Positions 47,809 to 62,724 of a stretch of 64,000 nucleotides of DNA are shown in pieces. This DNA is from Hoeflea sp. GTDB lineage: Bacteria > Pseudomonadota > Alphaproteobacteria > Rhizobiales > Rhizobiaceae. The number at the start of each line of letters is the position of its first letter. Positions within the stretch are counted from its first letter, which is position 1. The DNA is taken from assembly GCA_019084245.1 (NCBI GenBank), contig JAHRFE010000040.1, positions 1-64,000 on the forward strand. Direction: 5' to 3'. The notes beneath the pieces are model-generated. The model saw nothing but the letters and a program-made list of their open reading frames with translations. It did not search any database and had not been told where the DNA came from. The position numbers and the translations under genes are program-made.

Positions 47809-48816
47809 ATGGCGATCGAGGAATTCGGCCAGACAGCGGCTGGCGAGACGGTGCATCGGATAACACTCGAAGGCGGCGGTCTGACGGCACGGATCATGAC
47901 CTGGGGCGCGACGCTGCAGGAGTTGCGGCTGGAAGGGCATGCGGCGCCGTTGACGCTCGGGTTTCCGGATTTTGCCAGCTATCCGGCTTCCCCCTATTTC
48001 GGGCAGACCGCCGGCCGGCACGCGAACCGGATCGCCGGCGGCAAGTTCATGCTGGACAATGTCGCCTATCAGCTGGAATGCAACGAGCGCGGCGTCACCC
48101 ATCTGCATGGCGGCAGCGCCGGGATCGCCAAGCGCATCTGGACGATCGACAACCATGGGTCCGATCATGCGGTGTTCTCGATCATCGACCCGGACGGTCA
48201 GTCGGGCTATCCCGGAACTTTGAAAATCGAGACCCGCTATGAACTGCGCCCGGGCGGCTGCATGGCCATTACCTATACCAGTGTCACCGACCGGCCGACA
48301 CTCGCCAACATTGCCCATCACAGCTATTTCAATCTGGATGGTTCCGACAGCATTCTCGATCACGAGTTGATGATGGCCGCCGATCATTATCTGCCGGTTG
48401 ATGCGGACCAGATTCCCACCGGCGAGATCAGGCCGGTCGAAGGCACCGATTTCGATTTTCGCGAGTTGCGGCCGATCCGTCGGGACGGGCCCGACGGACA
48501 GGTCCCGTATGATCACAATTTCTGCATCTCGGCCGGGCGGGAGCCGGTGCGCACCATTGCGCTGGCGCGATCCATCCGCTCGGGCATTGCGATGGAGCTG
48601 CGCTCCACTGAGCCGGGCCTGCAATTCTATTCCGGCTTCAAGATCAAGCCGTCCGATCCGGGCTTGAACGGCAAGCCCTATGGCCCCTATGCCGGGTTCT
48701 GCCTCGAAACCCAGAGCTGGCCGGACAGTCCCAATCATGCGGGCTTTGCCGGCGCGGTGCTCCGTCCGGGCGAAAAGCGGGTCCAGCACACCGAGCATGT
48801 CTTCATCAGCAGCTGA
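47809..48816 (+). CDS. Aldose 1-epimerase family protein, possible sulfoquinovose mutarotase
   Basis: A 335-residue mutarotase. GalM motifs: GRHANRIAGGKF, HHSYFNLDG with the catalytic His, VPYDHNFCI and the catalytic Glu in FCLETQSWPDSPNH. Such enzymes interconvert sugar anomers. It stands directly before the sulfoquinovose gene set, where E. coli has the GalM relative YihR, so a role on sulfoquinovose is plausible but not shown. It lacks the operator copy, which lies in the gap behind it. Confidence 0.88.
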   Translation: MAIEEFGQTAAGETVHRITLEGGGLTARIMTWGATLQELRLEGHAAPLTLGFPDFASYPASPYFGQTAGRHANRIAGGKFMLDNVAYQLECNERGVTHLHGGSAGIAKRIWTIDNHGSDHAVFSIIDPDGQSGYPGTLKIETRYELRPGGCMAITYTSVTDRPTLANIAHHSYFNLDGSDSILDHELMMAADHYLPVDADQIPTGEIRPVEGTDFDFRELRPIRRDGPDGQVPYDHNFCISAGREPVRTIALARSIRSGIAMELRSTEPGLQFYSGFKIKPSDPGLNGKPYGPYAGFCLETQSWPDSPNHAGFAGAVLRPGEKRVQHTEHVFISS

Positions 48817-48889
48817 CCGATCCGGGATGCGCCGATCCGCATCGGCATGACTGGTCTTGACAGACGCCACGAAATAGAAGCCCATAGCA

Positions 48890-48909
48890 CAAGTCTTATA
48901 TAAGACTTG
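48890..48909. promoter_or_regulatory. GntR operator, copy 1 (before the TRAP operon)
   Basis: CAAGTCTTATATAAGACTTG is a perfect 20-bp palindrome, 41 bp before the small TRAP subunit start. The core GTCTTATATAAGAC recurs three times in the next 10 kb. Confidence 0.85.
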
Positions 48910-48950
48910 ATGAGGCGCTTTGGCTGTTGGCTCTGGGGAGGACCAAGACC

Positions 48951-49538
48951 GTGACCGCGATTCTGACGGTGCTGAGGCCGCTTGCGCTGTTCAACACCTT
49001 TCTCTTGCGTATCGGGCGAAATGCCGCCTGGATGGCCATGGGGCTGATGGTGGTGATCATCATGCTGCAGGTGATCTTCCGCTATGTCTTCAACAATGCG
49101 CTGGCGTGGCCGGACGAAGCGGCCCGCTTCCTGATGCTTTGGATGACCGGGCTGATCGCTCCGTCGGCCTATCGCTGGGGCGGTTTCGTGGCGATCGACA
49201 TGCTCAAGGATCTGCTGCCGCTGAGACTTGGGTCGCTGCTGGGCCTGTTGCTGCTGCTGGTATCGCTCGTCGTGCTGGTCTACGGTTTCCAGCTCGGGCT
49301 CAACCACGTCAAGTCCGGGTGGCTTTTCAATTCAAGCTCGCTGAAGATCCCGCTGGACTTCCTTGGCCTCGGGCTTGTCCGCGTCAAGCTGGCCTGGATG
49401 TACATGTCGCTGCCCGTCGGGCTGTTGCTGATGTCGCTCGTCAATGTCGAGCTCTGCCTCAAGGCTGTTGCCCATCTGATCGATCCGGACGCGGACCTAC
49501 CCGAGGATCACGACAGAATCCTGCTGGCGGTGGAGTAG
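48951..49538 (+). CDS. TRAP transporter small permease (DctQ type)
   Basis: A 195-residue four-helix protein (WMAMGLMVVIIMLQVIFRYVFNNALAWPDEAARFLM; MLKDLLPLRL). GGGGAGG at 48935-48941 supports GTG 48951; an upstream TTG is less likely. It pairs with the large subunit that starts 4 bp later. Operator copy 1 lies upstream. I infer sulfoquinovose or its glycoside as substrate from the cluster. Confidence 0.9.
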   Translation: MTAILTVLRPLALFNTFLLRIGRNAAWMAMGLMVVIIMLQVIFRYVFNNALAWPDEAARFLMLWMTGLIAPSAYRWGGFVAIDMLKDLLPLRLGSLLGLLLLLVSLVVLVYGFQLGLNHVKSGWLFNSSSLKIPLDFLGLGLVRVKLAWMYMSLPVGLLLMSLVNVELCLKAVAHLIDPDADLPEDHDRILLAVE

Positions 49539-49542
49539 GGCG

Positions 49543-50832
49543 ATGCTGTTCTTCTTCCTGCCGCTGTTTCTCATTTTCCTGATGATCGGCCTGCCGGTGT
49601 TCTTCGGCATGCTCGCCGCCCCCGGCCTGCTGCTGTGGCTCAACGGCCAGGAGCGTGACATCGCGCTGCTCTATCGCAATGTCTACACGGGCATGGATTC
49701 GTTTCCGCTGATGGCAATCCCGTTCTTCATGCTGGCCGGCGAATTGATGAACCGCGGCGGCATCACCATGCGGATCGTCGAATTCAGCCAGGCACTGATA
49801 GGCCATCTCAAGGGCGGGCTGGCGCATGTCAACATCCTGTCCTCGATGCTGTTTGCCGGCCTGTCGGGGTCTGCGGTCGCCGATGTGTCGGCACTGGGGT
49901 CGATGCTGATTCCCGCGATGGAGAAGAACGGCTACACACGCAAATTCGCGGCCGCTGTCACCGCTGCCTCCTCGGTCATTGGTCCGATCATTCCGCCATC
50001 CGGAATCATGATCATCTATGCCTATGTGATGGGGGAGTCCGTCGCCGCCCTGTTCCTGGCCGGCATCGTGCCCGGCGTGATGGTTGGCGTGGGCCTGATG
50101 CTCGTGGTGGCGTTCCTTGCCAGGCGCAATGATTTTCCGGCCGCGTCCCGCCGGTCCACCTGGCCCGAAAAGGGCCAGGCAAGCCTCAAGGCGTTCTTCC
50201 CGCTGATGACCCCGGTGATCATTCTCGGCGGCATCCTGGGCGGCATCTTCACCCCGACGGAAGCTTCCGCCGTGGCGGCGGTCTATGCCTTCATCGTGGC
50301 GCTGTTCATTCTCAAGACCATGGGATGGGCGGATCTCCCGAAGGTCCTGACCAAGGCGGCGATGACAACCTCGGTGGTGTTGCTGCTGGTCGGCGCGGCG
50401 ATGGCGTTCAAGACTGTCGTCAGTCTCAGCCATACGCCTGAAATCATGGCCGCGTTCATTCTTGGTCTGACGGACGAGCCGCTGCTTCTGCTGTTCCTGA
50501 TCAATCTCCTGCTGTTCGTGGTCGGCATGTTTCTCGATGCCGGGCCGGCCATCATTATCCTGGCTCCCATCCTGGCGCCGATCTTCACCGAACTCGGCGT
50601 CCACCCGGTGCATTTCGCCATCATCATGAGCGTCAACCTGACCGTCGGACTGGCAACCCCGCCGATGGGGCTGGTGCTGTTTGTCACGTCCAGCGTCTCG
50701 GGCGAGAAGGTTGAGACCATCGCCAAGGCGATCCTGCCGTTCCTGGCGGTCGAGATCCTGGTGATCTTCCTGATCACCTACGTGCCGCAGATTTCGCTGT
50801 TCATGCCGCAGTTGTTCGGGTTCGCGAAATGA
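49543..50832 (+). CDS. TRAP transporter large permease (DctM type)
   Basis: A 429-residue permease with the DctM motifs LSGSAVADVSALGSMLIPAM, SSVIGPIIPPSGIMIIYAYVMGESVAALFLAGIVPG and TVGLATPPMGLVLFV. It is the second gene of the GntR-controlled TRAP operon. The receptor gene follows after a gap of about 110 bp that holds operator copy 2. Confidence 0.92.
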   Translation: MLFFFLPLFLIFLMIGLPVFFGMLAAPGLLLWLNGQERDIALLYRNVYTGMDSFPLMAIPFFMLAGELMNRGGITMRIVEFSQALIGHLKGGLAHVNILSSMLFAGLSGSAVADVSALGSMLIPAMEKNGYTRKFAAAVTAASSVIGPIIPPSGIMIIYAYVMGESVAALFLAGIVPGVMVGVGLMLVVAFLARRNDFPAASRRSTWPEKGQASLKAFFPLMTPVIILGGILGGIFTPTEASAVAAVYAFIVALFILKTMGWADLPKVLTKAAMTTSVVLLLVGAAMAFKTVVSLSHTPEIMAAFILGLTDEPLLLLFLINLLLFVVGMFLDAGPAIIILAPILAPIFTELGVHPVHFAIIMSVNLTVGLATPPMGLVLFVTSSVSGEKVETIAKAILPFLAVEILVIFLITYVPQISLFMPQLFGFAK

Positions 50833-50900
50833 GTGATGCCCGTGTCATGCAGTTTTGACACGGATCGTGTGAATGCTTGACAAGCCAAGGGTGCTCGTCA

Positions 50901-50921
50901 ATCTTATGTCTTATATAAGAC
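50901..50921. promoter_or_regulatory. GntR operator, copy 2 (before dctP)
   Basis: GTCTTATATAAGAC at 50908-50921 is a perfect 14-bp palindrome. An extra half-site ATCTTAT sits directly before it at 50901-50907. It lies 20 bp before the receptor start, so the receptor can be repressed apart from the permeases. Confidence 0.82.
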
Positions 50922-50941
50922 TTACTGGGAAGGAGACATCA

Positions 50942-52036
50942 ATGGGAGGTTCACCGATGATCTTGAAACAAGCTATGAAAACGCTGAGTGCGGCTGCGCT
51001 CGGTCTTGCGGTTCTCACCGGCAGCGTGATCACGGCGGCGCAGGCGGCCGACATTACGCTGCGCGCCACCGCCAATTCGAATGAGAACGATGAGGACTAT
51101 GACGGTCTTGTCGTGTTCAAGGACTATGTCGAAAAAGCATCAAACGGAGCCATTGCCGTGGAGCTGTTCATTGGCACCCAGCTGTGCTCGACCGGCGCGG
51201 AATGCCTGCAGGGCATCGCCGACGGGTCGATCGACATCTACATCTCCACATCCGGCGGCGCCGCGGGGATCTTCCCCTACGTACAGGTTCTGGATCTGCC
51301 CTATCTGCTGCGCGACGACCGCATCGCCGAAGCTGTCCTGACCGAGGGCACCTTCGTGCGCGCCATGCGCGAGCAGATGCTGGCCGATTCGGGCGGCATG
51401 ATCCGCCTGATGACCATCGGCAACACCGGCGGCTGGCGCAATTTCGCCAACACCGAACGGGAAGTCCGTTCGCCGGCCGATCTCAAGGGTTTGAAGATCC
51501 GCACCGTGGTGGCCGACCTGCCGCAGGAACTGGTGCGCGCAATGGGCGCCTCGCCGACGCCGATCCCGTGGCCTGAGCTTTTCACCTCGTTCCAGACCGG
51601 TGTGGTCGAAGGCACGCAGAACGGCATCACCGACATCATGGGCATGAAGTTCCCCGATGCCGGGCTGAAATATCTCACGCTTGACGGCCATTCCTACATG
51701 GGCGCGCTCTGGTACATGAACAATGAGCGCTTCATGGGTCTGGATGAAGGCCTGCGCCGCGTCGTCATGGACGGGTTTGCCGCGCTTCAGCAGGCAACCT
51801 TTGCCTCGCCCAAGCGCAAGTCGATTGACGCCTACAAGGAATTCACGGCCATTGGCGGCGCGGTCTATGTGCCGAGCATGGAAGAAAAAGCTCAGTTCAA
51901 GGAAGCCGCGGCCCCGGTTTTCGACTGGTTCAAGGCCAATGTCGACGGCGGGTCTACCTTCTATGATCTGCTGGTTGCAGAAGCTGCCAAGGCGTCGGAG
52001 TTGATCGATGGCGGCGCGATGAAAGATACGCAGTAA
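50942..52036 (+). CDS. TRAP transporter substrate-binding protein (DctP type)
   Basis: A 364-residue receptor with a hydrophobic signal sequence (LSAAALGLAVLTGSVITAAQA) cut after AQA, then ADITLRATANSNENDEDYDG and the DctP core GLKIRTVVADLPQELVRAMGASPTPIPWPELFTSFQTGVVEG. The Arg in KIRT usually salt-bridges an acidic ligand, so a sulfonate or carboxylate fits. AAGGAG precedes ATG 50942. ATG 50957 is an alternative. It may bind sulfoquinovose or sulfolactate. Confidence 0.9.
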   Translation: MGGSPMILKQAMKTLSAAALGLAVLTGSVITAAQAADITLRATANSNENDEDYDGLVVFKDYVEKASNGAIAVELFIGTQLCSTGAECLQGIADGSIDIYISTSGGAAGIFPYVQVLDLPYLLRDDRIAEAVLTEGTFVRAMREQMLADSGGMIRLMTIGNTGGWRNFANTEREVRSPADLKGLKIRTVVADLPQELVRAMGASPTPIPWPELFTSFQTGVVEGTQNGITDIMGMKFPDAGLKYLTLDGHSYMGALWYMNNERFMGLDEGLRRVVMDGFAALQQATFASPKRKSIDAYKEFTAIGGAVYVPSMEEKAQFKEAAAPVFDWFKANVDGGSTFYDLLVAEAAKASELIDGGAMKDTQ

Positions 52037-52061
52037 GCTCCCGTCGGGATTTCCCAAACAG

Positions 52062-52091
52062 ACCGTCCGGACCCGTTCCGGGCGGTTTCTT
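52062..52091 (+). terminator. Terminator after the TRAP receptor gene
   Basis: ACCGTCCGG (52062-52070) pairs with CCGGGCGGT (52078-52086) with one G.T pair around a 7-nt loop. TTTCTTCATT follows. It closes the TRAP operon. Confidence 0.75.
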
Positions 52092-52143: not shown

Positions 52144-52923
52144 TCAGGCTGTGCGTTCCAGCATGGCCATCTCATCGCGGCGCAAGGTCAGGACATCGAC
52201 ACCCTTTTTCGTCACCGCCACCGTGTGTTCGAACTGGGCGGAGAGCTTGCGGTCGTTGGTGACGACCGTCCAGCCGTCCTCCCGTGTCGAGACCCGGCGC
52301 GTGCCCTGGTTGAGCATCGGCTCGATGGTGAAGACCATGCCCTCGCGCAGCTTCGGGCCTGTTCCCGGCCGGCCGAAATTGGGCACTTGCGGCTCCTCGT
52401 GCATGTCGCGGCCGATGCCGTGCCCGCAATATTCCCGCACGATCGTATAGCCGTTGCGTTTGGCGTGGCGTTCGATGGCGTAGCCGATGTCCCCCAGATA
52501 GGCCCCGGGACGCACCTGCCTGATGCCCTTCCACATCGCCTCCCGGGCGACCCGCACGAGCCGCTCGGCGGCGGGCGAGGCCTTGCCGACCAGATAGGTC
52601 TTGCTCGAATCTGCAATGAAGCCATTCTTCTCGAGCGTGATGTCGAGATTGATGAGGTCGCCGTCGCGGATGATCTCCTGCGGGTCGGGCTGCCCGTGGC
52701 AGACGACATCATTGATCGAGCAGTTCAGAACATATTCAAAGCCATACTGGCCCTTGCTTGCCGGGCGGGCGGCAAGGTCGATTGTGATGAAGCACTCGAC
52801 CAGATCATTGACCTGCAATGTCGACATGCCGGCAAGATCCAGTGTGTCCAGCATCTCGAACACGGATGCGAGCAACGAGCCCGAGACCCGCATGAGCGCC
52901 AGTTCGTCGGCGGTCTTGACCAT
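52144..52923 (-). CDS. map: Type I methionine aminopeptidase
   Basis: A 259-residue enzyme with the metal-binding residues of MetAP: NLDITLEKNGFIADSS, HGIGRDMHEEP and FTIEPMLNQG with VSTREDGWTVVTNDR. It removes the initiator Met from nascent proteins. It forms a tight pair with the ParD-like gene (one base between) and runs against the sulfosugar operon. Housekeeping map genes usually stand elsewhere, so this is probably a second copy. Confidence 0.9.
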   Translation of the reverse strand: MVKTADELALMRVSGSLLASVFEMLDTLDLAGMSTLQVNDLVECFITIDLAARPASKGQYGFEYVLNCSINDVVCHGQPDPQEIIRDGDLINLDITLEKNGFIADSSKTYLVGKASPAAERLVRVAREAMWKGIRQVRPGAYLGDIGYAIERHAKRNGYTIVREYCGHGIGRDMHEEPQVPNFGRPGTGPKLREGMVFTIEPMLNQGTRRVSTREDGWTVVTNDRKLSAQFEHTVAVTKKGVDVLTLRRDEMAMLERTA

Positions 52924-52924
52924 G

Positions 52925-53244: not shown

Positions 53245-53258
53245 GTCTTATATAAGAC
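53245..53258. promoter_or_regulatory. GntR operator, copy 3 (before the kinase gene)
   Basis: A perfect GTCTTATATAAGAC palindrome 66 bp before the kinase start. Its centre TATATAAG resembles a -10 box, so a bound repressor could block the promoter. Confidence 0.82.
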
Positions 53259-53324: not shown

Positions 53325-54230
53325 ATGGTGAGGATCGTGACCGCCGGGGTCGCCGTGGTGGATTTCGTCTTTTTCCTCGACGAGATGCCCCGGCTGGCGG
53401 AGAAGTACCGGGCGCGTGACGCCCAGATCACTGGCGGCGGCGGCGCGGCGAATGCGGCGGCTGCCATTGCCCGGCTTGGAGGTCAGGCGATGCTTGCGAG
53501 CCGGCTTGGCGACGATCAGGTTGCCGACATGATTGCCGCCGGGCTCGAGGCCGAGGGCGTCGATTGCCGCATGATGCGCCGGTTCGAAGGACGGCGATCC
53601 TCCTTCTCCTCGGTGTTCATCGATCAGACCGGCGAACGCCAGATCGTCAATTACCGCGATCACGCCTTGCCGATGGAGGCGGGCTGGCTCGAGGCCGCCC
53701 TGCCCAAAGACTTTGACGCGGCGCTTGCCGACACGCGCTGGCCCGACGGCGCGGAAGTGCTGATGCGCGTTGCGCGCGACCGCGGCCTGCCTGGCGTGCT
53801 CGACGCCGAGGCGCCGATCCGGGAGGCGGAAGCCGCGCTCGATCTGGCGAGCCATGTGGCGTTTTCGGCGCAAGGGTTGCGCGACTGGGCCGGCCATGGC
53901 GATCTCGAACGGGCGCTCGCCGATGTCGCGGCCGAGACCGGCAGCTTCGTCTGCGTGACCGATGGCGCACACGGCGTGCGCTGGCGCCATGGCGCCGCCT
54001 CCGGTTTCGAGCCGGCCTATGCGATCACGCCGCTCGACACACTGGGCGCGGGCGACGTCTGGCACGGCGCCTTCGCGCTCCGGCTGGGCGAAGGCGCGCC
54101 GCCGGGCGACGCGATCCGCTTCGCCAATGCGGTGGCGGCGATCAAGTGCACCAGAACCAATGGCCGCGCCGGCTATCCGACGCGCAGCCAAACCGAAGAT
54201 TTCATGAAAGAGGCACGGATATGCAGCTGA
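53325..54230 (+). CDS. yihV: PfkB kinase, probable 6-deoxy-6-sulfofructose kinase
   Basis: A 301-residue ribokinase-family enzyme with GGGGAANAAAAIARLGG and the anion-hole motif DTLGAGDVWHGAFAL. It matches E. coli YihV along its length (AEKYRARDAQITGGGG; ALADTRWPDGAEV; AIKCTRTNGRAGYPTRSQTEDF). Lys27, Asn109 and Arg138 fall at the numbers I recall for the sulfonate-binding residues of YihV, so sulfofructose is the likely substrate. It would make 6-deoxy-6-sulfofructose-1-phosphate. Operator copy 3 lies upstream, and the aldolase gene overlaps its end. Confidence 0.85.
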   Translation: MVRIVTAGVAVVDFVFFLDEMPRLAEKYRARDAQITGGGGAANAAAAIARLGGQAMLASRLGDDQVADMIAAGLEAEGVDCRMMRRFEGRRSSFSSVFIDQTGERQIVNYRDHALPMEAGWLEAALPKDFDAALADTRWPDGAEVLMRVARDRGLPGVLDAEAPIREAEAALDLASHVAFSAQGLRDWAGHGDLERALADVAAETGSFVCVTDGAHGVRWRHGAASGFEPAYAITPLDTLGAGDVWHGAFALRLGEGAPPGDAIRFANAVAAIKCTRTNGRAGYPTRSQTEDFMKEARICS

Positions 54231-55255
54231 GCGCAGGCAAATTGTGGGGCATGCGGCGCATGGCCGACGGCAACGGATTGTTCAAGATGACGGCGGTCGA
54301 CCAGCGGCCGCCGATCAAGGGTCCGATCGCCAGGCACCACGGGACCGCGGAAGCGCCCTGGCAGGCGGTGGCCGATTTCAAGACCCTGCTGATCGAGACG
54401 CTGCAGGGCCAGTCCTCGGCGATGCTGCTCGATCCGCATTTCGCCATTCCGCGCGGCATCGGCACGCTGTCGCCGGCCAGGGGCCTGATCGTGACGCTGG
54501 AGGATTCGCTGTTTGAGGAGACGGTCGACGGCCGCCTGTCGCGCGAGATCGACGACTGGTCGGTGGCCAAGATCAAGCGCATGGGTGGCGATGCGGTCAA
54601 GGTGCTGGCCTGGTACCGGCCCGATGCGCCCGACCACATTCGTGAGAAGCAGAAGGATTTCACCAAGCGCATCGGCGAGGCCTGCGCGCGCTTCGACATT
54701 CCGTTCCTGTTCGAACTGCTGGTCTATCCGCTCAAGAGCGACGCGCACCAGACCAGCGACTATGTCGAGATGACCGGCAAGCGCACCGATCACGTGCTGC
54801 AGTCGGTGGCGGATTTTGCCAGTCCTGAGTTCGGCATCGATGTCTTCAAGCTCGAAAGCCCGGTTGCCGCCAGGGACGTGCCCGAGGACGGCGACGCCGA
54901 GGTTCAGGCGGCCTTCGACGAAATGGGGCGGCTTGCGGGAAGGCCGTGGGTGATGCTGTCGGCCGGCGCCGGCAAGGCCGAGTTCCGCACCATTCTTGCC
55001 CATGCCTACCGCGCCGGCGCGTCGGGCTATCTTGCCGGGCGGGCGATCTGGCTTGAGCCTTTCGGTCTTTATCCGGACTGGGATGCAATGCGGATAGGGC
55101 TTGAGGCGGGCTCTGTCGAGTATATGCGGGAGCTCAATGCGCTCACCGATCAGGCGGCTATGCCGTGGAATCGTCACCCGGTGTATGGGACTGGCGGCGC
55201 GCAGCTCTCGCCGGCGGACCAGAGTTTTCGGCACAGCTACGGGGATTTTGGTTGA
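54221..55255 (+). CDS. yihT: Class I aldolase, probable sulfofructose-1-phosphate aldolase (YihT/LacD type)
   Basis: A 344-residue class I aldolase. It keeps the AVDQR motif, GDAVKVLAWYR, the Schiff-base Lys in DVFKLESPV, and WVMLSAGAGKAEF followed by GASGYLAGRAIW. LacD (tagatose-bisphosphate aldolase) and YihT share these. It is longer than YihT (292) by about 50 residues at the C-terminus. Next to a YihV-like kinase it should cleave sulfofructose phosphate to DHAP and sulfolactaldehyde. It overlaps the kinase by 10 bp. Confidence 0.83.
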   Translation: MQLSAGKLWGMRRMADGNGLFKMTAVDQRPPIKGPIARHHGTAEAPWQAVADFKTLLIETLQGQSSAMLLDPHFAIPRGIGTLSPARGLIVTLEDSLFEETVDGRLSREIDDWSVAKIKRMGGDAVKVLAWYRPDAPDHIREKQKDFTKRIGEACARFDIPFLFELLVYPLKSDAHQTSDYVEMTGKRTDHVLQSVADFASPEFGIDVFKLESPVAARDVPEDGDAEVQAAFDEMGRLAGRPWVMLSAGAGKAEFRTILAHAYRAGASGYLAGRAIWLEPFGLYPDWDAMRIGLEAGSVEYMRELNALTDQAAMPWNRHPVYGTGGAQLSPADQSFRHSYGDFG

Positions 55256-55263
55256 TGCAGGGG

Positions 55264-55854
55264 TCAGTCGAGCAACAGCCGGTTGATGACACGCGGCGGG
55301 TCGCCCGGATTGACGCCGCGGGCGATGATGATGGCTTCGCCGACGCGCGGTGTGGTCCCGGAGATGGCGTTGATCAGGACCGGATGGGTGATCATCAGCT
55401 GATTGCCGGCTCCGTCGAATTCCTCAACCGCCGCGATGAGTTCTGCTGGGATCTCGTTCGGGTCGGCACCACCGACGATCGAATTGAGATAGGCCTTGGT
55501 CTCGACCGCGCTGCTGCCAAAGGCCAGTTCGGCAGTCTGGAGCGCGCGGCAGAACTCGCCGGAATAGACTGCGTTGATCGAGACCGCGCGGGCGGCAAAT
55601 CGCATGCCGAGGCGCCGCGCCGCCTGAATGCCCCGGTCGGTCAGGCTCTGGCGGCTGTCACAATCGCCAAGATCAGGCCTCAGCGGTTCGCCATCGCCCG
55701 GTGTACGCGAATATCCGAGCAGGATGGTGTAGCCGCCCTGCGAAAGCCGCGCCCAGGCGGCTTCGGTTGCGAAGCTTTTTGCAGGCATGGCGACAACGAC
55801 AATGGCCATGGCGAGGATAACGGCCAGAGGCCAGCGTCTCAGGATCAGTTTCAT
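55264..55854 (-). CDS. Histidine phosphatase family protein lacking the catalytic RH motif
   Basis: A 196-residue exported protein (hydrophobic N-terminal segment, AKSFATEAA) of the phosphoglycerate-mutase-like fold. Members start with LLRHA, whose His takes the phosphate. Here the strand reads TILLGYSRTPGDG, so the nucleophile is lost. Later elements remain: DCDSRQSLTDRGIQAARRLG, VYSGEFCRALQTAELAF and MITHPVLI. It is probably inactive as a phosphatase, perhaps a binding protein. It faces the aldolase gene. Confidence 0.75.
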   Translation of the reverse strand: MKLILRRWPLAVILAMAIVVVAMPAKSFATEAAWARLSQGGYTILLGYSRTPGDGEPLRPDLGDCDSRQSLTDRGIQAARRLGMRFAARAVSINAVYSGEFCRALQTAELAFGSSAVETKAYLNSIVGGADPNEIPAELIAAVEEFDGAGNQLMITHPVLINAISGTTPRVGEAIIIARGVNPGDPPRVINRLLLD

Positions 55855-55894: not shown

Positions 55895-57289
55895 ATGTGC
55901 ATGTCCGGTGAAGTTCTGACAATAGGAGTCCTGCCGCTGGGGCGACCGACATTTGACGTCCCCTTTGCCGAGGAGATGCTCAGCGGCATGATCGATGATC
56001 TCAAAGCCTCCGGTTACCGTCTTATCGGTCCGGAAACATTGCTGATGGATGCGGCGTCGACGCAAGCGGCAATGGCAGGAATTGCCGCCCAAAAGCCCGA
56101 CCGGATCCTGATCCTGCAGGTCACTTTCACCGATGCGGCGATGGCCTGCCGGATTGCCGAGGCCTTCGACCAGCCGCTGGCAATCTGGGCCGTTCCCGAA
56201 CCGAGATTGGGCGGAAGGCTGAGGCTCAACGCGTTCTGCGGCCTGAACCTGGCTTCGCATGCGCTGGGATTGCGCGGACGGCTGTTTTCCTGGCGCTACG
56301 CCGCGCCAGGCGCGCCGGGTCTGGAGGCGCTGTTTGATGACGCGCCGATGACTGTTCCCTTGTTGGCTGAATCAGGCGACGCCGATCCCGAACAGGGACG
56401 GGTGTTGCTTTCCAGCCTGCGTGGCAAGTCGATCGCCCGCATCGGGCAGCATCCCGACGGGTTTGATACCTGCGCTTACGACAGCGCGAAACTGGCCGCG
56501 CTGACCGGCATCTCGGTGGCGGGTTTCGAACTTTCCGAGCTGTTTTCCCGGGCGCGTGCGGCGCCGGATGCGGCCGCTGAAGCGCTGCGCGCCGAAACGG
56601 CTGAAAGCCTCACGGATCTTGATCAGGTGAACCAGATTGAGCTTGACCGGTCGCTCCGGCTAAAGCTGGCGCTGGACGTCATGAAGGCCGAGGGCGGCTT
56701 TGACGCCTTCGCCATCCGCTGCTGGCCGGAAACCTTCACAGACTATGGCGGCGCAGTCTGCGGTCCGGCGTCGATGATGGGCGAGGGACGGGTGCCCTGC
56801 GCCTGCGAGGCCGATGTCTATGGCGCAGCGACGCAGCTTCTGCTGCAGGCTGCGAGTGGTCAGCCAGTGTTTCTGGTCGATCTGGTCGATCTCGACGCAG
56901 ACGATGACACGGGCGTGGTCTGGCATTGCGGTCAGGCGCCGGTCTCGATGGCTGATCCCGATTCGGTCGCCCGCGCGACGATCCACACCAACCGGAAAAT
57001 GCCGCTGCTGTTCGAATTCCCGCTCAGGCCCGGGCTCGTCACCTTCGTGCGGCTGAGCCAGGCGCGGGGCAATCCGTGCCTCATCCTGGCGCGGGGCGAC
57101 ATGCTCAAACGCGATATGGCGTTCACCGGCACGTCCGGTGTGGTGCGGTTCGAGCGACCTGCGGGCGAGATGCTCGCGCGCGTCATAGACAGCGGACTCG
57201 AGCATCATATGGCACTGGCCTATGGCGATCATGTCACCACGCTCGAAAACTTTGCCGTTGCTGCCGGCCTGCCAGTCATCCACCTCTAG
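55895..57289 (+). CDS. L-fucose/L-arabinose isomerase-fold protein, possible sulfoquinovose isomerase
   Basis: A 464-residue sugar isomerase relative. The N-terminal part (GVLPLGRPTFDVPFAEEMLSGMIDDLKASGYRLIGPETLLMD) is a Rossmann-like domain, and FAIRCWPETFTDYGGAVCGPASMMGEGRVPCACEADVYGAATQLLL is the typical metal-centre region of this fold. In the cluster it fills the step sulfoquinovose to sulfofructose, since no YihS relative is present. Fucose-isomerase-like enzymes have been linked to this step in other sulfosugar clusters, as I recall. A fucose or arabinose isomerase is the alternative. Confidence 0.78.
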   Translation: MCMSGEVLTIGVLPLGRPTFDVPFAEEMLSGMIDDLKASGYRLIGPETLLMDAASTQAAMAGIAAQKPDRILILQVTFTDAAMACRIAEAFDQPLAIWAVPEPRLGGRLRLNAFCGLNLASHALGLRGRLFSWRYAAPGAPGLEALFDDAPMTVPLLAESGDADPEQGRVLLSSLRGKSIARIGQHPDGFDTCAYDSAKLAALTGISVAGFELSELFSRARAAPDAAAEALRAETAESLTDLDQVNQIELDRSLRLKLALDVMKAEGGFDAFAIRCWPETFTDYGGAVCGPASMMGEGRVPCACEADVYGAATQLLLQAASGQPVFLVDLVDLDADDDTGVVWHCGQAPVSMADPDSVARATIHTNRKMPLLFEFPLRPGLVTFVRLSQARGNPCLILARGDMLKRDMAFTGTSGVVRFERPAGEMLARVIDSGLEHHMALAYGDHVTTLENFAVAAGLPVIHL

Positions 57290-57299
57290 GGCCCCAACC

Positions 57300-58439
57300 A
57301 TGACAGAGATCAGATACGGCATCATCGGTTCGGGCATGATGGGTCACGAGCATATCCGCAACATCGGCCTGATCGAAGGCGCGCGGGTGACCGCGGTTTC
57401 CGATCCCGACGAGGGGATGCGGTCAAGTGCTGCCGCGCTTGCGGGCAATGGGTGTGCAGCGTTTACGGATCACGCAGCGCTGCTTCACTCAGGGCTGTGC
57501 GATGCGCTTGTGATCGCGGCTCCCAATCATGTGCACCACGCGATCCTCAAGGATGTGCTGCCCGCCGATCTTCCGGTGCTGGTGGAAAAACCGCTGTGCA
57601 CGACGCTTGCCGATTGCGAGGAAGTGCTGGCGCTTGCCGACGGACGGTCTTCCCAGGTCTGGGTTGCGATGGAATACCGTTTCATGCCGCCGGTCGAGCG
57701 GCTGCTCGGAACGGTCCGTTCCGGGGATGCCGGGCAGGTGCGGATGATTTCGATCCGCGAGCATCGGTTTCCGTTCCTGAAGAAGGTCGGTGACTGGAAC
57801 AGGTTCGAAGCCAATACAGGCGGCACGCTGGTCGAGAAATGCTGCCACTTCTTCGATCTTATGCGGCTGATCGCCAAGGCCGAGCCGGTCCGGGTCTATG
57901 CGTCGGGGGGGATGGACGTCAATTTTCGCGATGAGGATTATGCCGGCCGCAAGCCCGACATTCTCGACAATGCCTATGTGGTGATCGACTTCGCCAATGG
58001 CGTGCGTGGCATGCTCGATCTGTGCATGTTCGCCGAAGGCTCCACCTGGCAGGAGGCGATTGCCGTCACCGGCGATCTCGCCAAGGTGGAGGCGCTGGTA
58101 CCCGGACCGTCGCGGTTCTCGCACGACGGCAAGGAGCGGCATTCGGAATTCGTGTTCTCGCCGCGTGCGAGCAAACAGGAACGGCGGGAGATCGTCGATG
58201 TTGACGCCGCGTTCCTGGCTGCCGGCGATCACCACGGCTCGACCTATTTCCAGCACCTGAAATTCTTCGCGATGATCCGTGATGGCGGCGTCGCGGAAGT
58301 GAGCCTGGAGGACGGGTTGCAGTCTGTGCGGATCGGTCTTGCCGCGGAGCAATCGGTCAAGACCGGACAGGCGATCTCGCTTTCACAGTCAGCCCATGAG
58401 CTATCAATCCGTCTGGATCAAACCATCAGCGCAGATTGA
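57300..58439 (+). CDS. Gfo/Idh/MocA family oxidoreductase, candidate NAD-dependent sulfoquinovosidase
   Basis: A 379-residue protein with an NAD-binding Rossmann domain (YGIIGSGMMGHEHIRN), VEKPLC and a C-terminal alpha/beta domain (EYRFMPPVERLL; GGTLVEKCCHFFDLMR). Most members oxidise a sugar. A branch works as NAD-dependent glycosidase (family GH188 on sulfoquinovosides, from memory), and its place among sulfosugar genes fits this. A myo-inositol-type dehydrogenase is the alternative. It converges with the regulator gene and overlaps it by 14 bp. Confidence 0.8.
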   Translation: MTEIRYGIIGSGMMGHEHIRNIGLIEGARVTAVSDPDEGMRSSAAALAGNGCAAFTDHAALLHSGLCDALVIAAPNHVHHAILKDVLPADLPVLVEKPLCTTLADCEEVLALADGRSSQVWVAMEYRFMPPVERLLGTVRSGDAGQVRMISIREHRFPFLKKVGDWNRFEANTGGTLVEKCCHFFDLMRLIAKAEPVRVYASGGMDVNFRDEDYAGRKPDILDNAYVVIDFANGVRGMLDLCMFAEGSTWQEAIAVTGDLAKVEALVPGPSRFSHDGKERHSEFVFSPRASKQERREIVDVDAAFLAAGDHHGSTYFQHLKFFAMIRDGGVAEVSLEDGLQSVRIGLAAEQSVKTGQAISLSQSAHELSIRLDQTISAD

Positions 58440-59187
58440 CCGCGTAATGGATCTCGCGGGTAATGCAGCGTGACCATCTCAGTTCCACCGGGCGCTCCTC
58501 CAGGTCCCGCGCCACCCGGCTGATCAGCAGCAGCGGCTCGTGAACGTGGCAGCCGAGCTTGGCGGCGTCCCTGGAACTCGCGGAAATCGCCTTGAGCCGC
58601 TCCTCGGCGCTGCCGATGGTGATGCCCCAGCGCTCGGAATAGAGCCGGTAGAGATTGTTGGGGATGATGGTCAGATGATCGAAATCCGGAAACCGCCTGG
58701 CGGGCAGGGTGATCGTTTCGATCAGGATCGGCTGACCGGCGAGCGAGCGGATGCGCTCGATGCGGAAGACCTGATCCCCCTCATCGAGATTGAGGGATTC
58801 CATCTCGGTCTTGGTGGGTTTGGCGTGTCCCGTGCTCAGAACCTTGGAGTCGGGAAAACTGGGGGTGCCGATGTCTGGCGACAGCCGGAAGAACTGGAAC
58901 AGGATGCGGCTTTCCTCCGGCTCGGCGACATAGGTGCCGCGGCCCTGGCGGCGCAGCAGCAGATTGTCGGCGGTCATCGAATCGAGCGCCTTGCGCACCG
59001 TTCCCTGGCTGACGCTGAGTTGCCGCGCCAGTTCGATCTCGCTGGGCAGCAGCATGCCGGGCGACCATTCGCCGTCGACCAGGCGGCGCATCAGCCGCTC
59101 GCGGACCTGGGCATAGAGAGGCTTGAAACCGATCGCCTCGGGCCCTGGTTTTTCGGTTTCCTCCGGCAGTGCCATCTTCTTTTCCAT
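58426..59187 (-). CDS. GntR family transcriptional regulator (HutC/FarR subfamily)
   Basis: A 253-residue repressor with a winged helix (about 20-90: YAQVRERLMRRLVDGEWSPGMLLPSEIELARQLSVSQGTVRKALDSM) and a UbiC-like ligand domain of the HutC group (DQVFRIERIRSLAGQPILIETITLPARRFP). It is divergent from suyAB, and operator copy 4 lies in the shared region. ATG 59175 is an alternative start with a better purine stretch. It most likely controls all four operator-bearing promoters. The effector is probably a sulfosugar intermediate. Confidence 0.9.
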   Translation of the reverse strand: MEKKMALPEETEKPGPEAIGFKPLYAQVRERLMRRLVDGEWSPGMLLPSEIELARQLSVSQGTVRKALDSMTADNLLLRRQGRGTYVAEPEESRILFQFFRLSPDIGTPSFPDSKVLSTGHAKPTKTEMESLNLDEGDQVFRIERIRSLAGQPILIETITLPARRFPDFDHLTIIPNNLYRLYSERWGITIGSAEERLKAISASSRDAAKLGCHVHEPLLLISRVARDLEERPVELRWSRCITREIHYAVNLR

Positions 59188-59199
59188 GCTTCGCCCCGG

Positions 59200-59241
59200 T
59201 TGACATTCCCGCCTCGACCCATCTTATATCTTATATAAGAC
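59200..59241. promoter_or_regulatory. suyAB promoter with GntR operator, copy 4
   Basis: TTGACA at 59200-59205 is followed 18-19 bp later by TTATAT/TATATC. The operator overlaps: TCTTATATAAGA at 59229-59240, with an extra ATCTTAT at 59221-59227, as in copy 2. The region is shared by the regulator and the suy genes, so it can give repression and autoregulation. Confidence 0.72.
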
Positions 59242-59291
59242 CTGTCCACCGGACAACGAGACATTGCAGTATATCCTGATTGGAGGACAAA

Positions 59292-59579
59292 TTGAGCACC
59301 CCCCATTTGCTGGTTCATGATCACGCGGACAATGTCGGCGTTGTTGTTGTCGAGGGCCTGAGCGCGGGCACCACCATGCTGTGCGTGGTCACGCATGACA
59401 ATTCGAGCTTCGAGCTGGTGTCGAAGGCGGATGTGCCGATTGGCCACAAGATCGCGCTTCAGGACATCGCCTCGGGCGACACGGCGATCAAATATGGCGA
59501 GGACATCGGCAAGTTCGTGGCCGACGTCGAAAAGGGCGCCCATGTCCACACCCACAATCTCAAGACCAAGCGCTGGTAG
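59292..59579 (+). CDS. suyA: Sulfolactate sulfo-lyase, small subunit SuyA
   Basis: A 95-residue SAF-domain protein ([30 protein letters not shown]-like [33 protein letters not shown]). The fold is that of the altronate hydrolase N-terminus. Its stand-alone size, its C-terminal KTKRW and the following slcC and comC fit SuyA. I use TTG 59292, with GGAGG 5 nt upstream. Together with SuyB it cleaves (R)-sulfolactate to pyruvate and sulfite. Confidence 0.87.
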
Positions 59580-59590
59580 GAGCCCTCATC

Positions 59591-60772
59591 ATGGCATCGA
59601 ACTATTCCAACATGACATTTTCCGGCTACCGCCGCGAGAACGGCCGGGTCGGCGTGCGCAATCTCGTCGTCATCCTGCCGGTCGACGATATCTCCAATGC
59701 CGCCTGCGAGGCGGTCGCCAACAACATCAAGGGCACGCTGGCCCTGCCGCATGCCTACGGGCGGCTGCAGTTCGGCGAGGATCTCGACCTGCATTTCCGC
59801 ACCATGATCGGCACCGGCTCGAACCCGAATGTCGCGGCCGTCGTCGTCATCGGCATCGAGCCGGGCTGGACCAGGAAGATCGTCGACGGCATCGCCGCCA
59901 CCGGCAAGCCGGTGACCGGCTTCTCGATCGAGCAGAACGGCGATTTGAAGACCATCATGGAAGCTTCCAAGGTGGCCAAGGAATATGTCCATTTCGCCTC
60001 CGAGCTGCAGCGCGAGGAGTGCTCGATCTCGGAACTGTGGATCTCGACCAAATGCGGCGAGAGCGACACCACGACGGGTCTCGGCTCCTGCCCGACGGTC
60101 GGCAACATGTATGACAAGCTCCTCCCCGAGGGCATCTATGGCTGCTTCGGCGAGACTTCCGAGATCACCGGCGCCGAGCACATCTGCAAGACCCGGGCCA
60201 TCAACGAGGAAGTGGGGAACCGCTGGTACGCCATGTGGAAGGCCTATCAGGACGACGTGATCTTCGCCCACCAGACCGACGACCTCAGTGACAGCCAGCC
60301 GACCAAGGGCAATATCGAGGGCGGGCTGACGACGATCGAGGAGAAGGCCTTGGGCAATCTCGAGAAGATCGGCCGGACCTCGCAATACATCGACATTCTC
60401 GGGCCGGCGGAAGAACCCAAGTCGGGCAAGGGCCTGTACTTCATGGACTCGTCGTCTGCGGCCGCAGAATGCGTCACGCTGATGGCAGCGGGCGGTTACG
60501 TGGTCCACACCTTTCCGACGGGCCAGGGCAACGTGATCGGCAACCCGATCGTGCCGGTGATCAAGATCACCGCCAACCCGCGCACGGTCCGCACCATGGG
60601 CGAGCATGTCGATGTCGACGTCTCGGGGATCCTGAGGCGCGAGATGACCATCGACGAGGCCGGCGACGCGCTGATCGAGATGATCATCCGCACCTCCAAC
60701 GGCCGCGCCACCGCCGCAGAAGCCCTCGGACACCGCGAGTTCTCCATGACAAAGCTCTATCGCTCGGCGTAA
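59591..60772 (+). CDS. suyB: Sulfolactate sulfo-lyase, large subunit SuyB
   Basis: A 393-residue protein of the UxaA/SuyB family ([72 protein letters not shown]). The iron-binding cysteines are seen in TKCGESD and in later Cys. Altronate dehydratase is homologous and often a single longer chain; the split form with slcC and comC favours SuyAB. It starts 11 bp after suyA. The product sulfite must be handled elsewhere. Confidence 0.87.
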
Positions 60773-60790
60773 TCAGGCAGGGGGTTTCTC

Positions 60791-61723
60791 ATGGCGGATA
60801 TTGTCATCACCGAATTCATGGACGAGGCGGCGGTTGCCCGCCTCGCTCAGGCTCATGATACGCTCTACGATCCCAAATTGGTCGATGATCCGGTTCAGTT
60901 GCACGGGCATTTGAGCTCGGCGCGGGCGCTGATCGTGCGCAACCGCACCCAGGTGCGCGAAACACTGCTCGGGATGGGACCGAAGCTGCGCGTGGTCGGG
61001 AGGCTTGGCGTCGGGCTCGACAACATCGATGTCGCGGCCTGCAAGGCACGCTCGATCAAGGTGATCCCGGCGACCGGCGCCAATGATCTGTCGGTCGCCG
61101 AATATGTGATCACGACCGCGCTGATGCTGTTGCGCGGATCCTACCTGCGCTCGGCGGACGTGGCGGAGGGTGCCTGGCCACGGCAATCGATGATGGGGCG
61201 AGAGCTTGCGGACAAGACCATCGGGCTTGTCGGTTATGGCTCGATTGCCCGCGAGGTGGCCTGGCGGGCGCATATGATGGGCATGCAGATCCTTGCCTAT
61301 GACCCCTATCTCATGGCCGATCATCCCGGCTGGCAGATCGCCCGCAATGTCTCGCTCGATGCGGTGCTGGAACTCTCCGACGTGGTGTCGCTGCATACGC
61401 CGCTGACCGACGCCACACGACACATGATCGATGCAAGGGCGCTTTCGGCAATGAAACCCGATGCGATCCTGATCAATGCCGCGCGCGGCGGCATTGTCGA
61501 TGAAGCCGCTCTTGCGGAAGCCTTGAAGGGCGGGAAGCTTGGCGGGGCTGCGCTCGATGTGTTCGAGACAGAGCCTTTAACCGCGGAAGCCGGAGAGAAG
61601 TTCAAGGATCTCGGCAATCTGGTGCTGACGCCGCACATTGCCGGCGTCACGGACGAATCGAATGAGCGCGTCAGCCATCTGATCGCCGAGAAGGTCTTGG
61701 AAGTGCTGGGAAACAAGGCATGA
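60791..61723 (+). CDS. slcC: D-isomer-specific 2-hydroxyacid dehydrogenase, probable (S)-sulfolactate dehydrogenase
   Basis: A 310-residue SerA-like enzyme with an NAD site GLVGYGSIAREVAWRAHMMGM, the catalytic Arg in NAARGGIVDEAAL, Glu in FETEPL and His in LTPHIAGVTDE. SlcC oxidises (S)-sulfolactate to sulfopyruvate. Position between suyB and a ComC-like gene supports this; phosphoglycerate or glyoxylate reductase activity is the alternative. It overlaps comC by 4 bp. Confidence 0.83.
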   Translation: MADIVITEFMDEAAVARLAQAHDTLYDPKLVDDPVQLHGHLSSARALIVRNRTQVRETLLGMGPKLRVVGRLGVGLDNIDVAACKARSIKVIPATGANDLSVAEYVITTALMLLRGSYLRSADVAEGAWPRQSMMGRELADKTIGLVGYGSIAREVAWRAHMMGMQILAYDPYLMADHPGWQIARNVSLDAVLELSDVVSLHTPLTDATRHMIDARALSAMKPDAILINAARGGIVDEAALAEALKGGKLGGAALDVFETEPLTAEAGEKFKDLGNLVLTPHIAGVTDESNERVSHLIAEKVLEVLGNKA

Positions 61724-62724
61724 GCGATATGCTGACGATGACGCCGGAGGAAGTTACCGACCTCATCACCGGTGCGCTGATGCGCAGCCGGACATCGCCC
61801 GAAAACGCGGCTTCGGTGGCGCGTGCATTGCTGGCGGCCGAACTCGCCGGTCAAAGCGGCCACGGTCTGCGGCGGGTGGAGGCCTACTCGGCCCAGGCGC
61901 GCGCCGGCAAGGTCGATGGTTTCGCCGTGCCCTCCAGCGAGAGCCTGAGACCGGGCGCGCTGGCGATCGATGCGGCCAACGGATTTGCCTATCCGGCGAT
62001 GGATCTGGCGCTCGACTGGCTGCCTGGTGCGGCGAAGACGCAGGGCATCGCCATTGCCGGCATTCGCCGCTCGCATCATTGCGGGGTCGCGGGCGTGATC
62101 GTCGAGGCGCTGGCCGAGCGTGGCGTGGCGGCGCTGATGGTTGCCAACGCGCCGGCGGCGATGGCGCCTTGGGGCGGGCGCCGGCCCCTGTTCGGTACCG
62201 ACCCGATTGCCTTTGCCGCACCGCTTCCGGGCAGCGATCCGGTGGTGGTCGACATCTCCCTGTCCAAGGTGGCGCGCGGCAAGATCATGGCGGCGGCGCA
62301 GAAGGGCGAGCCGATCCCGGAAGGCTGGGCGCTCGACCCCGACGGCGAACCCACCACCGACGCCAAGGCGGCGATGGCAGGAACCATGATCCCGCTCGGC
62401 GACGCCAAGGGCACGGCGCTGGCGCTGATGGTGGAACTGCTCTGTGCGGGGCTGACCGGGGCCAATTATGCCTGGCAGCAGACGTCGTTCTTCGACGACA
62501 AGGGCGATCCGCCCGGGACGGGTCAGGCGATCATCGCGATTGATCCCGACGCCTTCGGACCCGGTGGCGCCGAGCGCATGGCGATGATGGCCGACATGGT
62601 GGCGGGAACCGAGGGCGCGCGTCTGCCCGGACGCCGACGTCAGCAGATCCGCGCTGATTTCCTCACGAATGGAATTCCCGTCAATGCGGACTTGATGGAA
62701 TCAATCCGCGCCATCGGGACTTGA
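61720..62724 (+). CDS. comC: Ldh family dehydrogenase, probable (R)-sulfolactate dehydrogenase ComC
   Basis: A 334-residue malate/L-lactate-dehydrogenase-fold enzyme (Ldh_2: SGHGLRRVEAYSAQARAG; RRSHHCGVAGVIVEALAERG; NAPAAMAPWGGRRPLFGTDPIAFAAPL; LGDAKGTALALMVELLCAGLTGA). ComC reduces sulfopyruvate to (R)-sulfolactate. With SlcC it would convert the (S) form into the (R) form used by SuyAB. The ATG overlaps the slcC stop. Confidence 0.83.
   Translation: MSDMLTMTPEEVTDLITGALMRSRTSPENAASVARALLAAELAGQSGHGLRRVEAYSAQARAGKVDGFAVPSSESLRPGALAIDAANGFAYPAMDLALDWLPGAAKTQGIAIAGIRRSHHCGVAGVIVEALAERGVAALMVANAPAAMAPWGGRRPLFGTDPIAFAAPLPGSDPVVVDISLSKVARGKIMAAAQKGEPIPEGWALDPDGEPTTDAKAAMAGTMIPLGDAKGTALALMVELLCAGLTGANYAWQQTSFFDDKGDPPGTGQAIIAIDPDAFGPGGAERMAMMADMVAGTEGARLPGRRRQQIRADFLTNGIPVNADLMESIRAIGT

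Follow-up and report, generated by a model that had tools for sequence, protein, structure and literature searches.

The stretch of the Hoeflea sp. genome analysed here (64 kb of contig JAHRFE010000040.1, hereafter the window; genome size 4.82 Mb) carries a 15 kb gene cluster at 47809–62724 which most likely lets the bacterium use sulfoquinovose (SQ) and its glycosides completely, as one regulon switched by a GntR-type protein. A predicted tripartite ATP-independent periplasmic (TRAP) system would import the substrate, the sulfoquinovosidase SqgA would free SQ from its glycoside inside the cell, and a mutarotase and an SftI/SqvD-like isomerase would yield sulfofructose (SF). A YihV-like kinase would then form sulfofructose-1-phosphate (SFP), to be split by a class I aldolase into dihydroxyacetone phosphate (DHAP) and (S)-sulfolactaldehyde (SLA). 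An unlinked GabD-type dehydrogenase would oxidise the latter to (S)-sulfolactate, SlcC and ComC would invert this through sulfopyruvate to (R)-sulfolactate, and SuyAB would release sulfite, leaving pyruvate. The GntR-UTRA protein is predicted to bind four copies of the palindrome GTCTTATATAAGAC and to switch the set, by repression or activation, as one private regulon.

The route from SQ to DHAP, sulfolactaldehyde, pyruvate and sulfite had been proposed in an initial annotation made from the sequence alone, and homology supports it through SqgA, the match of the aldolase to PDB entry 8TNF, and SuyB. All the genes named there are open frames without internal stops, and Pfam, NCBIfam and PDB-sequence searches recovered the same set at 47809–62724, namely the kinase, aldolase, isomerase, GalM, TRAP genes and SuyA-SuyB-SlcC-ComC. 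Gene identities are assigned by homology and key residues.

The sulfoquinovosidase and the sugar half

The genes assigned to the sugar half are as follows.

57300–58439, plus strand: SqgA, predicted NAD-dependent sulfoquinovosidase (family GH188), a Gfo/Idh/MocA protein
47809–48816, plus strand: GalM-like aldose 1-epimerase, putative SQ mutarotase (PF01263, 261 bits; TIGR02636, 247 bits, under the 398-bit cut-off)
48927–49538, plus strand: TRAP small subunit, adjoining the large subunit (weak YiaM-type match, 21 bits)
49543–50832, plus strand: TRAP large subunit (TIGR00786, 438 bits, above cut-off)
50942–52036, plus strand: TRAP substrate-binding protein of the DctP family (NF037995, 131 bits, above cut-off; TIGR00787, 142 bits, below 175); the start was picked by eye behind an operator copy and a GGAAGGAG motif, and the profile search began at 50954
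53325–54230, plus strand: PfkB-family, YihV-like putative SF kinase
54221–55255, plus strand: class I putative sulfohexulose-1-phosphate aldolase (DeoC/LacD family)
55895–57289, plus strand: SqvD/SftI-like putative SQ isomerase with a fucose/arabinose isomerase fold

The best single argument for SQ as the substrate is that a gene for a predicted SQ-glycoside glycosidase adjoins that of the isomerase. The protein at 57300–58439, overlooked in the initial annotation, scores 417, 404 and 390 bits in phmmer against 8qc3, 8qc2 and 8zn9, of which 8qc3 and 8qc2 are crystallised SqgA enzymes, and the next solved oxidoreductase reaches only 68 bits. The substrate contacts described for SqgA are Lys107, Tyr136, Glu189, His193 and His321, and its sulfonate site is formed by Arg166, Leu170 and Lys172 (ArSqgA numbers, PMC10755693). 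All eight residues are kept in the alignment, so that both homology and the conserved catalytic and sulfonate-binding residues place the protein in GH188. Glu163 of the same paper was left out of the comparison, there being no Glu at the matching position under the same numbering offset. Tested GH188 enzymes cleave SQ glycosides (PMC10755693), and it is the presence of SqgA with its SQ-contacting residues that ties the locus to SQ.

The kinase gene overlaps that of the aldolase, confirming the order given in the initial annotation. Its product reaches 211 bits to E. coli YihV (7ag6), its best solved relative, versus 159 for the next solved match, and it keeps Lys27, Asn109 and Arg138, which we take to be the sulfonate contacts of YihV; among the aligned relatives Lys27 and Arg138 are found in 18 of 18 and Asn109 in 14 of 18. 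The likeness of the kinase to YihV had been rightly recognised. The label YihT-type fits the aldolase only remotely; this protein scores 304 bits to 8tnf, 121–134 bits to LacD and only 64–66 bits to YihT. Its AlphaFold model (mean predicted local distance difference test score, pLDDT, 89.6) also has 8tnf as the top Foldseek match. In the title of 8TNF, 'sulfohexulose-1-phosphate aldolase from Paracoccus onubensis strain Merri', the function is the one assigned by the depositors.

The isomerase matches NF048012, 'sulfoquinovose isomerase SftI', with 251 bits, and a sequence search of the PDB at E 0.01 gave no match to it. Its AlphaFold model (pLDDT 89.9) matches arabinose and fucose isomerases in Foldseek with E down to 2.5e-21, in agreement with the fold proposed in the initial annotation, although the overall superposition is poor (TM score about 0.55, root-mean-square deviation about 24). 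The protein belongs to the arabinose/fucose isomerase superfamily, and it would act as an SQ isomerase. An SQ isomerase, an SF kinase and an SFP aldolase are thus predicted together, as in sulfoglycolysis of the Embden–Meyerhof–Parnas type (sulfo-EMP). Since the isomerase resembles SqvD/SftI and is not of the YihS type, and the aldolase bears only a remote likeness to YihT, the set is best described as a hybrid sulfo-EMP; such hybrids have been reported (PMC9594981).

The sulfolactate half and a second SuyAB copy

Four adjacent genes make up the second half of the cluster.

59280–59579, plus strand: SuyA, (R)-sulfolactate sulfo-lyase small subunit (68–70% identity to SuyA of loci L131 and L132, the latter from Sinorhizobium mexicanum)
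59591–60772, plus strand: SuyB, (R)-sulfolactate sulfo-lyase large subunit (PF20629, PF04295)
60791–61723, plus strand: SlcC, putative (S)-sulfolactate dehydrogenase of the 2-hydroxyacid dehydrogenase type (61–68% to a gene near SuyAB in L131/L132)
61720–62724, plus strand: ComC, putative (R)-sulfolactate dehydrogenase of the Ldh_2 family (64–69% to L131/L132)

Judged by its sequence relationships, SuyB looks authentic, because a 99% identical copy sits on another contig of the same genome (C40:218750–219928) in a locus for the degradation of 2,3-dihydroxypropane-1-sulfonate (DHPS). Over 1472 bases the two SuyAB stretches share 94% identity. The second locus encodes HpsN (706 bits to 8wwe, '(R)-DHPS dehydrogenase', versus 261 for the best histidinol dehydrogenase) and an HpsO-like short-chain dehydrogenase with 369 bits to HpsO (8wwf) but also 347 to gluconate 5-dehydrogenase (6le3). 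It also holds TRAP genes, a YeiH-type exporter and a zinc alcohol dehydrogenase, which would occupy the place expected for HpsP. Neither SlcC nor ComC is found in this hpsN locus. Their presence only beside the SuyAB of the sulfoglycolysis cluster is what stereochemistry would lead one to expect, as HpsN gives (R)-sulfolactate and sulfoglycolysis the (S) form, which needs SlcC and ComC (PMC9594981, PMC12421959). A pair of SuyB copies, both nearly equally identical to the SuyB of the window, also occurs in each of three relatives (G001, G011 and G015), which hints at gene conversion.

Plasmid sequences gave 314 records matching SuyB, 13 of them at 61–90% identity and the 14th at 39%. Among the 13 are Sinorhizobium mexicanum (90%), five Paracoccus/Rhodobacteraceae (80–87%) and Cupriavidus pinatubonensis (68%), in whose strain JMP134 SuyAB has been described (PMC12890257); most of the 13 are labelled in PLSDB just as 'UxaA family hydrolase'. 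In P. aestuarii the gene order is GntR, SuyA, SuyB, tripartite tricarboxylate transporter, hydroxyacid dehydrogenase, Ldh and sulfate exporter, with SlcC 61% and ComC 64% identical to the proteins of the window. By these similarities the split SuyA and SuyB proteins group with SuyAB of sulfonate loci, apart from altronate and galactarate dehydratases, and SlcC and ComC, both placed behind SuyAB and close in sequence to those of L131 and L132, are assigned as the racemising pair.

The GntR regulator and its proposed operator

The initial annotation had spoken of one regulon without giving evidence. Palindromes were looked for in ten intergenic stretches of the cluster, and a 14-base palindrome, GTCTTATATAAGAC, was found to precede four transcription units belonging to both halves, which gives that claim its support.

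58426–59187, minus strand: GntR-UTRA regulator, divergent from suyA (PF00392 and PF07702, above cut-off)
48893–48906, no strand assigned: operator copy 1, 20 bases before the start of the TRAP small subunit
50908–50921, no strand assigned: operator copy 2, before the binding-protein gene
53245–53258, no strand assigned: operator copy 3, 66 bases before the kinase start
59228–59241, no strand assigned: operator copy 4, with one mismatch, between GntR and SuyA

With up to two mismatches allowed, the window contains four sites versus none in 100 shuffles, and the whole genome contains the same four, all in the cluster; a reversed control pattern gives two sites in the genome. A search allowing one mismatch covered the own genome, 11 genomes of the same genus and six of the same order. 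Sites were detected in 11 of these 18 genomes, all 11 being Hoeflea, and in neither G003 nor the six same-order genomes. The control pattern had one site across the 18, in a same-order genome, and none in the 11 Hoeflea. All 35 sites of the 11 Hoeflea genomes lie within the cluster, its fragments, or the SuyAB remnant of G009, where the site stands between GntR and SuyA in a locus without the sugar half. In a sample of 80 loci from relatives (see below), with two mismatches allowed, the operator is present in 20 of 20 loci bearing GntR (63 sites) versus four of 60 without it (four sites, three of them about 70 bases before a kinase gene). Two copies, each with one mismatch, are also present in the Sinorhizobium mexicanum locus, and one of them lies between GntR and SuyA. 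A shared operator before units of both halves, found nowhere else in the genome, points to a single regulon, with GntR as its predicted binding protein.

Distribution in relatives and exchangeable desulfonating ends

The context of the cluster was examined in the best 80 of 237 isomerase relatives in the genome collection, a sample that leans to near relatives. The isomerase occurs in 12 of the 18 genomes of the genus, and two more, incomplete ones hold other cluster fragments (L144, L145). Each of the 11 further Hoeflea loci has the kinase, aldolase, isomerase, SqgA and GntR, and eight have SuyB, the remaining three stopping at contig ends. The core of kinase, aldolase, isomerase and SqgA is full in 63 of the 80 loci, and GalM is present in 44. 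Since these four genes recur together, the cluster is not a chance assembly.

Two kinds of desulfonating end were found in the sample, SuyAB in 16 loci and ComD plus ComE in 15, and no locus has both. GntR accompanies 16 of 16 SuyAB loci and none of the 15 ComDE loci; DeoR is present in 15 of 15 ComDE loci and two of 16 SuyAB loci. SlcC is common to both kinds (15 of 16 SuyAB and 15 of 15 ComDE loci), and ComC stands in 13 of the 16 SuyAB loci. An aldehyde dehydrogenase lies near 13 of the 15 ComDE loci versus four of the 16 SuyAB loci, one of these four at the edge of the stretch. Among the loci with neither end, 15 have an aldehyde dehydrogenase (12 of them with SlcC), 11 have SlcC only and a further 23 have neither, 11 of these 23 with less than 8 kb downstream. 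The two ComDE proteins checked, ComD of L075 and ComE of L125, are above the NCBIfam cut-offs. No Xsc-type family appears among the recurrent genes of the loci. Xsc is above cut-off in 16 of the 17 genomes searched, namely all 11 ComDE-bearing ones examined (of 15), the window's own and four of five of the SuyAB type, so it is available to the ComDE type yet not special to it.

On the isomerase tree (70 rows, 11 short-contig rows of 81 having been dropped) SuyAB requires four gains or losses and ComDE eight, of which four and seven, respectively, are forced by well supported branches. The desulfonating ends have therefore undergone exchange or loss more than once, the tree being compatible with either of these and also with transfer of whole clusters. 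On balance we favour the view that marine Alphaproteobacteria share an SQ core (GH188 sulfoquinovosidase, SftI-like isomerase, YihV-like kinase, sulfohexulose-1-phosphate aldolase and usually TRAP), to which one or the other of two desulfonating ends has been attached, with exchanges or losses happening repeatedly. In this view each end would come with a regulator of its own, SuyAB-SlcC(-ComC) with GntR and GTCTTATATAAGAC, and SlcC-ComDE, whose product would go to Xsc, with DeoR. In the open-licence PMC papers searched, no account of a sulfo-EMP coupled to ComDE-Xsc was found, and in the accessible text of PMC12330013 ComDE and Xsc are named only in a legend on DHPS degradation.

Two genes of the cluster have no evident part in the pathway.

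52144–52923, minus strand: Map
55264–55854, minus strand: His-phosphatase-like protein

The latter has a hydrophobic N-terminus, its RHG motif reads GYS, GYA, SFA or GHA in close Hoeflea copies, and relatives of it occur in 15 of the 80 loci, mostly of the GntR type. L053 encodes at 5845–7281 a di-haem cytochrome c peroxidase/MauG-type protein (PF03150 in this locus), and so do another 48 of the 80 loci. In most cases its gene separates that of the binding protein from that of the kinase. It has no counterpart in the window, where Map takes up this position. Zymomonas mobilis plasmid pZZM402 (128–4636, L133) encodes a class II aldolase, an aldose epimerase, an isomerase 38% and an SqgA-like protein 48% identical to those of the window, possibly another SQ gene set.

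The sulfolactaldehyde step and points against the reading

Several observations weigh against complete use of SQ by this cluster, the main one being that there is no aldehyde dehydrogenase among its genes. The initial annotation aptly called the set nearly complete. No sulfolactaldehyde reductase or dehydrogenase was detected in the cluster, and no genome-wide search for a YihU-type reductase was made. As the operator is confined to the cluster and could not serve as a pointer to the missing dehydrogenase, one reaction has to be supplied by an enzyme encoded outside the cluster. The aldehyde dehydrogenase family has 20 matches in the genome. The best match to the cluster-borne aldehyde dehydrogenases of relatives is a GabD-like protein (L018, C21:53225–54610) with 50–57% identity, and it too counts against the reading in that it passes the cut-off for succinate-semialdehyde dehydrogenase (SSADH), scores 668 and 657 bits to solved SSADHs versus 639 to the sulfolactaldehyde dehydrogenase RlGabD (8c54), and has no operator in the genome-wide scan with up to two mismatches. 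A GabD-type enzyme is nevertheless plausible for the step, because RlGabD (PMC10599462) and GabD-2 of R. pomeroyi (PMC11131964) have both been demonstrated to oxidise sulfolactaldehyde. The available text of PMC12421959 likewise assigns no gene to this step in Paracoccus strain Merri.

Other candidates were considered for this step and for sulfite disposal. A CoxL-like molybdenum hydroxylase, encoded with its neighbours downstream of the cluster (L015:8160–11327), was rejected as a sulfolactaldehyde oxidase; it is not tied to the SQ genes, since it is present in 18 of 18 genus genomes, isomerase-less ones included. Sulfite disposal was only touched on: the single Mo-co dimer match adjoins a c-type cytochrome and resembles SoxCD, and a role of SoxCD as a dedicated sulfite dehydrogenase is unsupported. 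In relatives, an aldehyde dehydrogenase of G009, 72% identical to that of the Nitratireductor cluster, adjoins GalM and the same flanking genes. The S. mexicanum plasmid (L132) has at 382–1809, on the minus strand and near SuyAB, one 82% identical to that of the Nitratireductor SQ cluster, making it a candidate sulfolactaldehyde dehydrogenase of the kind that was not found in Paracoccus Merri.

The remaining adverse points concern single assignments. The isomerase falls short of the NF048012 cut-off of 700 bits, so that it belongs to the same family without reaching the equivalog level; the mutarotase and ComC are also below the cut-offs of their nearest NCBIfam models, the latter with 176 bits versus 500 for L-sulfolactate dehydrogenase. 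Every solved relative of SlcC at E 1e-50 carries the name phosphoglycerate dehydrogenase. The isomerase and SqgA (55895–58439) have no operator copy directly before them, and the Paracoccus Merri homologues of the kinase and aldolase were not raised on sulfofucose (PMC12421959).

Alternative explanations

The two halves may have separate jobs, SQ being turned into exported sulfolactate or DHPS and SuyAB-SlcC-ComC serving sulfolactate taken up from outside. The lack of a linked sulfolactaldehyde dehydrogenase fits this, as does a second TRAP system just downstream of the cluster. The halves also part in two relatives within the 20 kb read: G009 (L140) and G016 (L141) both have GntR-SuyAB-SlcC-ComC with the operator, next to the same flanking genes. 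Of the front half, G009 retains GalM but none of the kinase, aldolase, isomerase and SqgA genes, and G016 retains the kinase and GalM only. We nevertheless consider this explanation unlikely, because a single operator, kept in every GntR locus, precedes both halves and is private to them, the Pfam and NCBIfam scans of the cluster revealed no sulfonate exporter, and SlcC together with ComC suits (S)-sulfolactate coming from sulfoglycolysis.

It is quite improbable that the front half serves another sulfohexose, such as sulfofucose or an unknown algal sulfosugar, with the back half leading to the same end products. The organism of the nearest solved aldolase does degrade sulfofucose, and the title of that entry speaks of sulfohexulose and not of sulfofructose. 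GntR, SuyAB, SlcC, ComC and the operator also occur in Sinorhizobium mexicanum ITTG R7, which is listed as sulfofucolytic (PMC12421959). Against this stand the SqgA residues and the activity of the tested GH188 enzymes discussed above, the grouping of the isomerase with SftI, an SQ isomerase, and the proximity of the kinase to YihV. Moreover, the sulfofucose route described in PMC12421959 is of the Entner–Doudoroff (ED) type and uses other gene families, none of which was seen among the cluster genes.

That the sulfonate reading is mistaken altogether, the true substrates being sugars or sugar acids free of sulfonate (tagatose phosphates, altronate or galactarate), can be dismissed as scarcely credible: the best NCBIfam model of the aldolase is the tagatose-1,6-diphosphate aldolase subfamily (331 bits, cut-off 184) and that of SuyB is galactarate dehydratase (138 bits, far under the cut-off), as is its sole solved relative, but SqgA is present, the aldolase is much closer to 8tnf than to LacD, SuyB has its copy in the hpsN locus, and on plasmids the identity is still 61% for the last SuyB-type protein but drops to 39% for the first of the other UxaA-family proteins. 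From sequence evidence, a kinase for tagatose-6-phosphate or some other sugar and a SuyAB acting on altronate only both look unlikely.

Comparison with published systems

Complete use of SQ by hybrid sulfo-EMP and SuyAB, the reading preferred here, has several parallels. The initial annotation took loci holding both halves to be rarely described, but they are commoner than that, with SuyAB in one fifth of the loci sampled (16/80) and published counterparts (PMC11465081, PMC12421959, PMC9594981).

One is the GH188 'Y160' cluster of Actinobacteria bacterium IMCC26103, put forward on genomic grounds as a possibly novel route of sulfoglycolysis, which brings together GH188, a fucose isomerase, an SF kinase, an SFP aldolase, SuyAB and a 'D-3-phosphoglycerate dehydrogenase' that is SlcC-like by the present reading (PMC11465081). 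It differs in having an ABC transporter, its own SLA dehydrogenase and Leu170 of GH188 replaced by Tyr, while the Hoeflea cluster keeps Leu170, has a TRAP importer, ComC and the GntR operator, and misses the SLA dehydrogenase. Cluster 2 of Paracoccus wurundjeri strain Merri shares SuyAB, SlcC, ComC, a PF00294 kinase and a PF01791 aldolase, and likewise has no classical SLA dehydrogenase according to the text available (PMC12421959). Its tandem sulfofucose-sulfolactate sulfolyase pathway was shown to desulfonate completely in one organism, and the occurrence of both halves in one bacterium was called unusual there. In contrast to Hoeflea, it degrades sulfofucose by an ED-type route, the kinase and aldolase are not induced, there is no aldose-ketose isomerase, and the main text of the paper makes no mention of GH188.

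Sulfo-EMP of E. coli and Arthrobacter sp. AK01 and sulfo-EMP2 share the chemistry, the YihV-like kinase and a class I aldolase, described hybrids share the SqvD-like isomerase, and Arthrobacter shares SqgA; these organisms excrete DHPS or sulfolactate, whereas in Hoeflea the desulfonation enzymes share the operator (PMC9594981, PMC8873060, PMC10755693). Genome-predicted clusters of Thermotogae and Chloroflexi also extend sulfoglycolysis to SuyAB, but with a transaldolase (sulfo-TAL) in place of the kinase and aldolase (PMC9594981). For Ensifer sp. HO-A22 complete SQ mineralisation to sulfite in one organism was proposed as well, with an ED front end and sulfo-ED plus DHPS-degrading clusters (PMC10599462). 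Jannaschia faecimaris is among the examples of GH188 clusters in PMC10755693. A survey of 21845 aquatic genomes predicted SQ pathways for 2050 of them and treated two labelled taxa with DHPS and sulfolactate genes as cross-feeders (PMC13372026). Clusters predicted to mineralise SQ within a single cell are already in print. What the present analysis adds to the initial annotation is the sulfoquinovosidase, an operator private to the cluster, the recognition of the pathway as a hybrid, the step that is missing and the back ends that can be exchanged.

Implications for sulfoquinovose turnover

SQ turnover is usually pictured as two-tier, with one species making sulfolactate or DHPS and another desulfonating it. 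The Hoeflea cluster appears to hold nearly all the genes for turning the membrane sulfosugar of plants and algae into usable carbon and sulfite, and if it works as read, single marine cells close the SQ loop. In that case the 14-base operator and a handful of genes would be a simple genomic marker for single-cell SQ mineralisation. The absence of a linked sulfolactaldehyde dehydrogenase from 12 of the 16 SuyAB-type loci, as in Paracoccus Merri, sets a directly testable question. If the view of exchangeable ends is correct, many marine Alphaproteobacteria would mineralise SQ alone instead of feeding C3-sulfonates to others.

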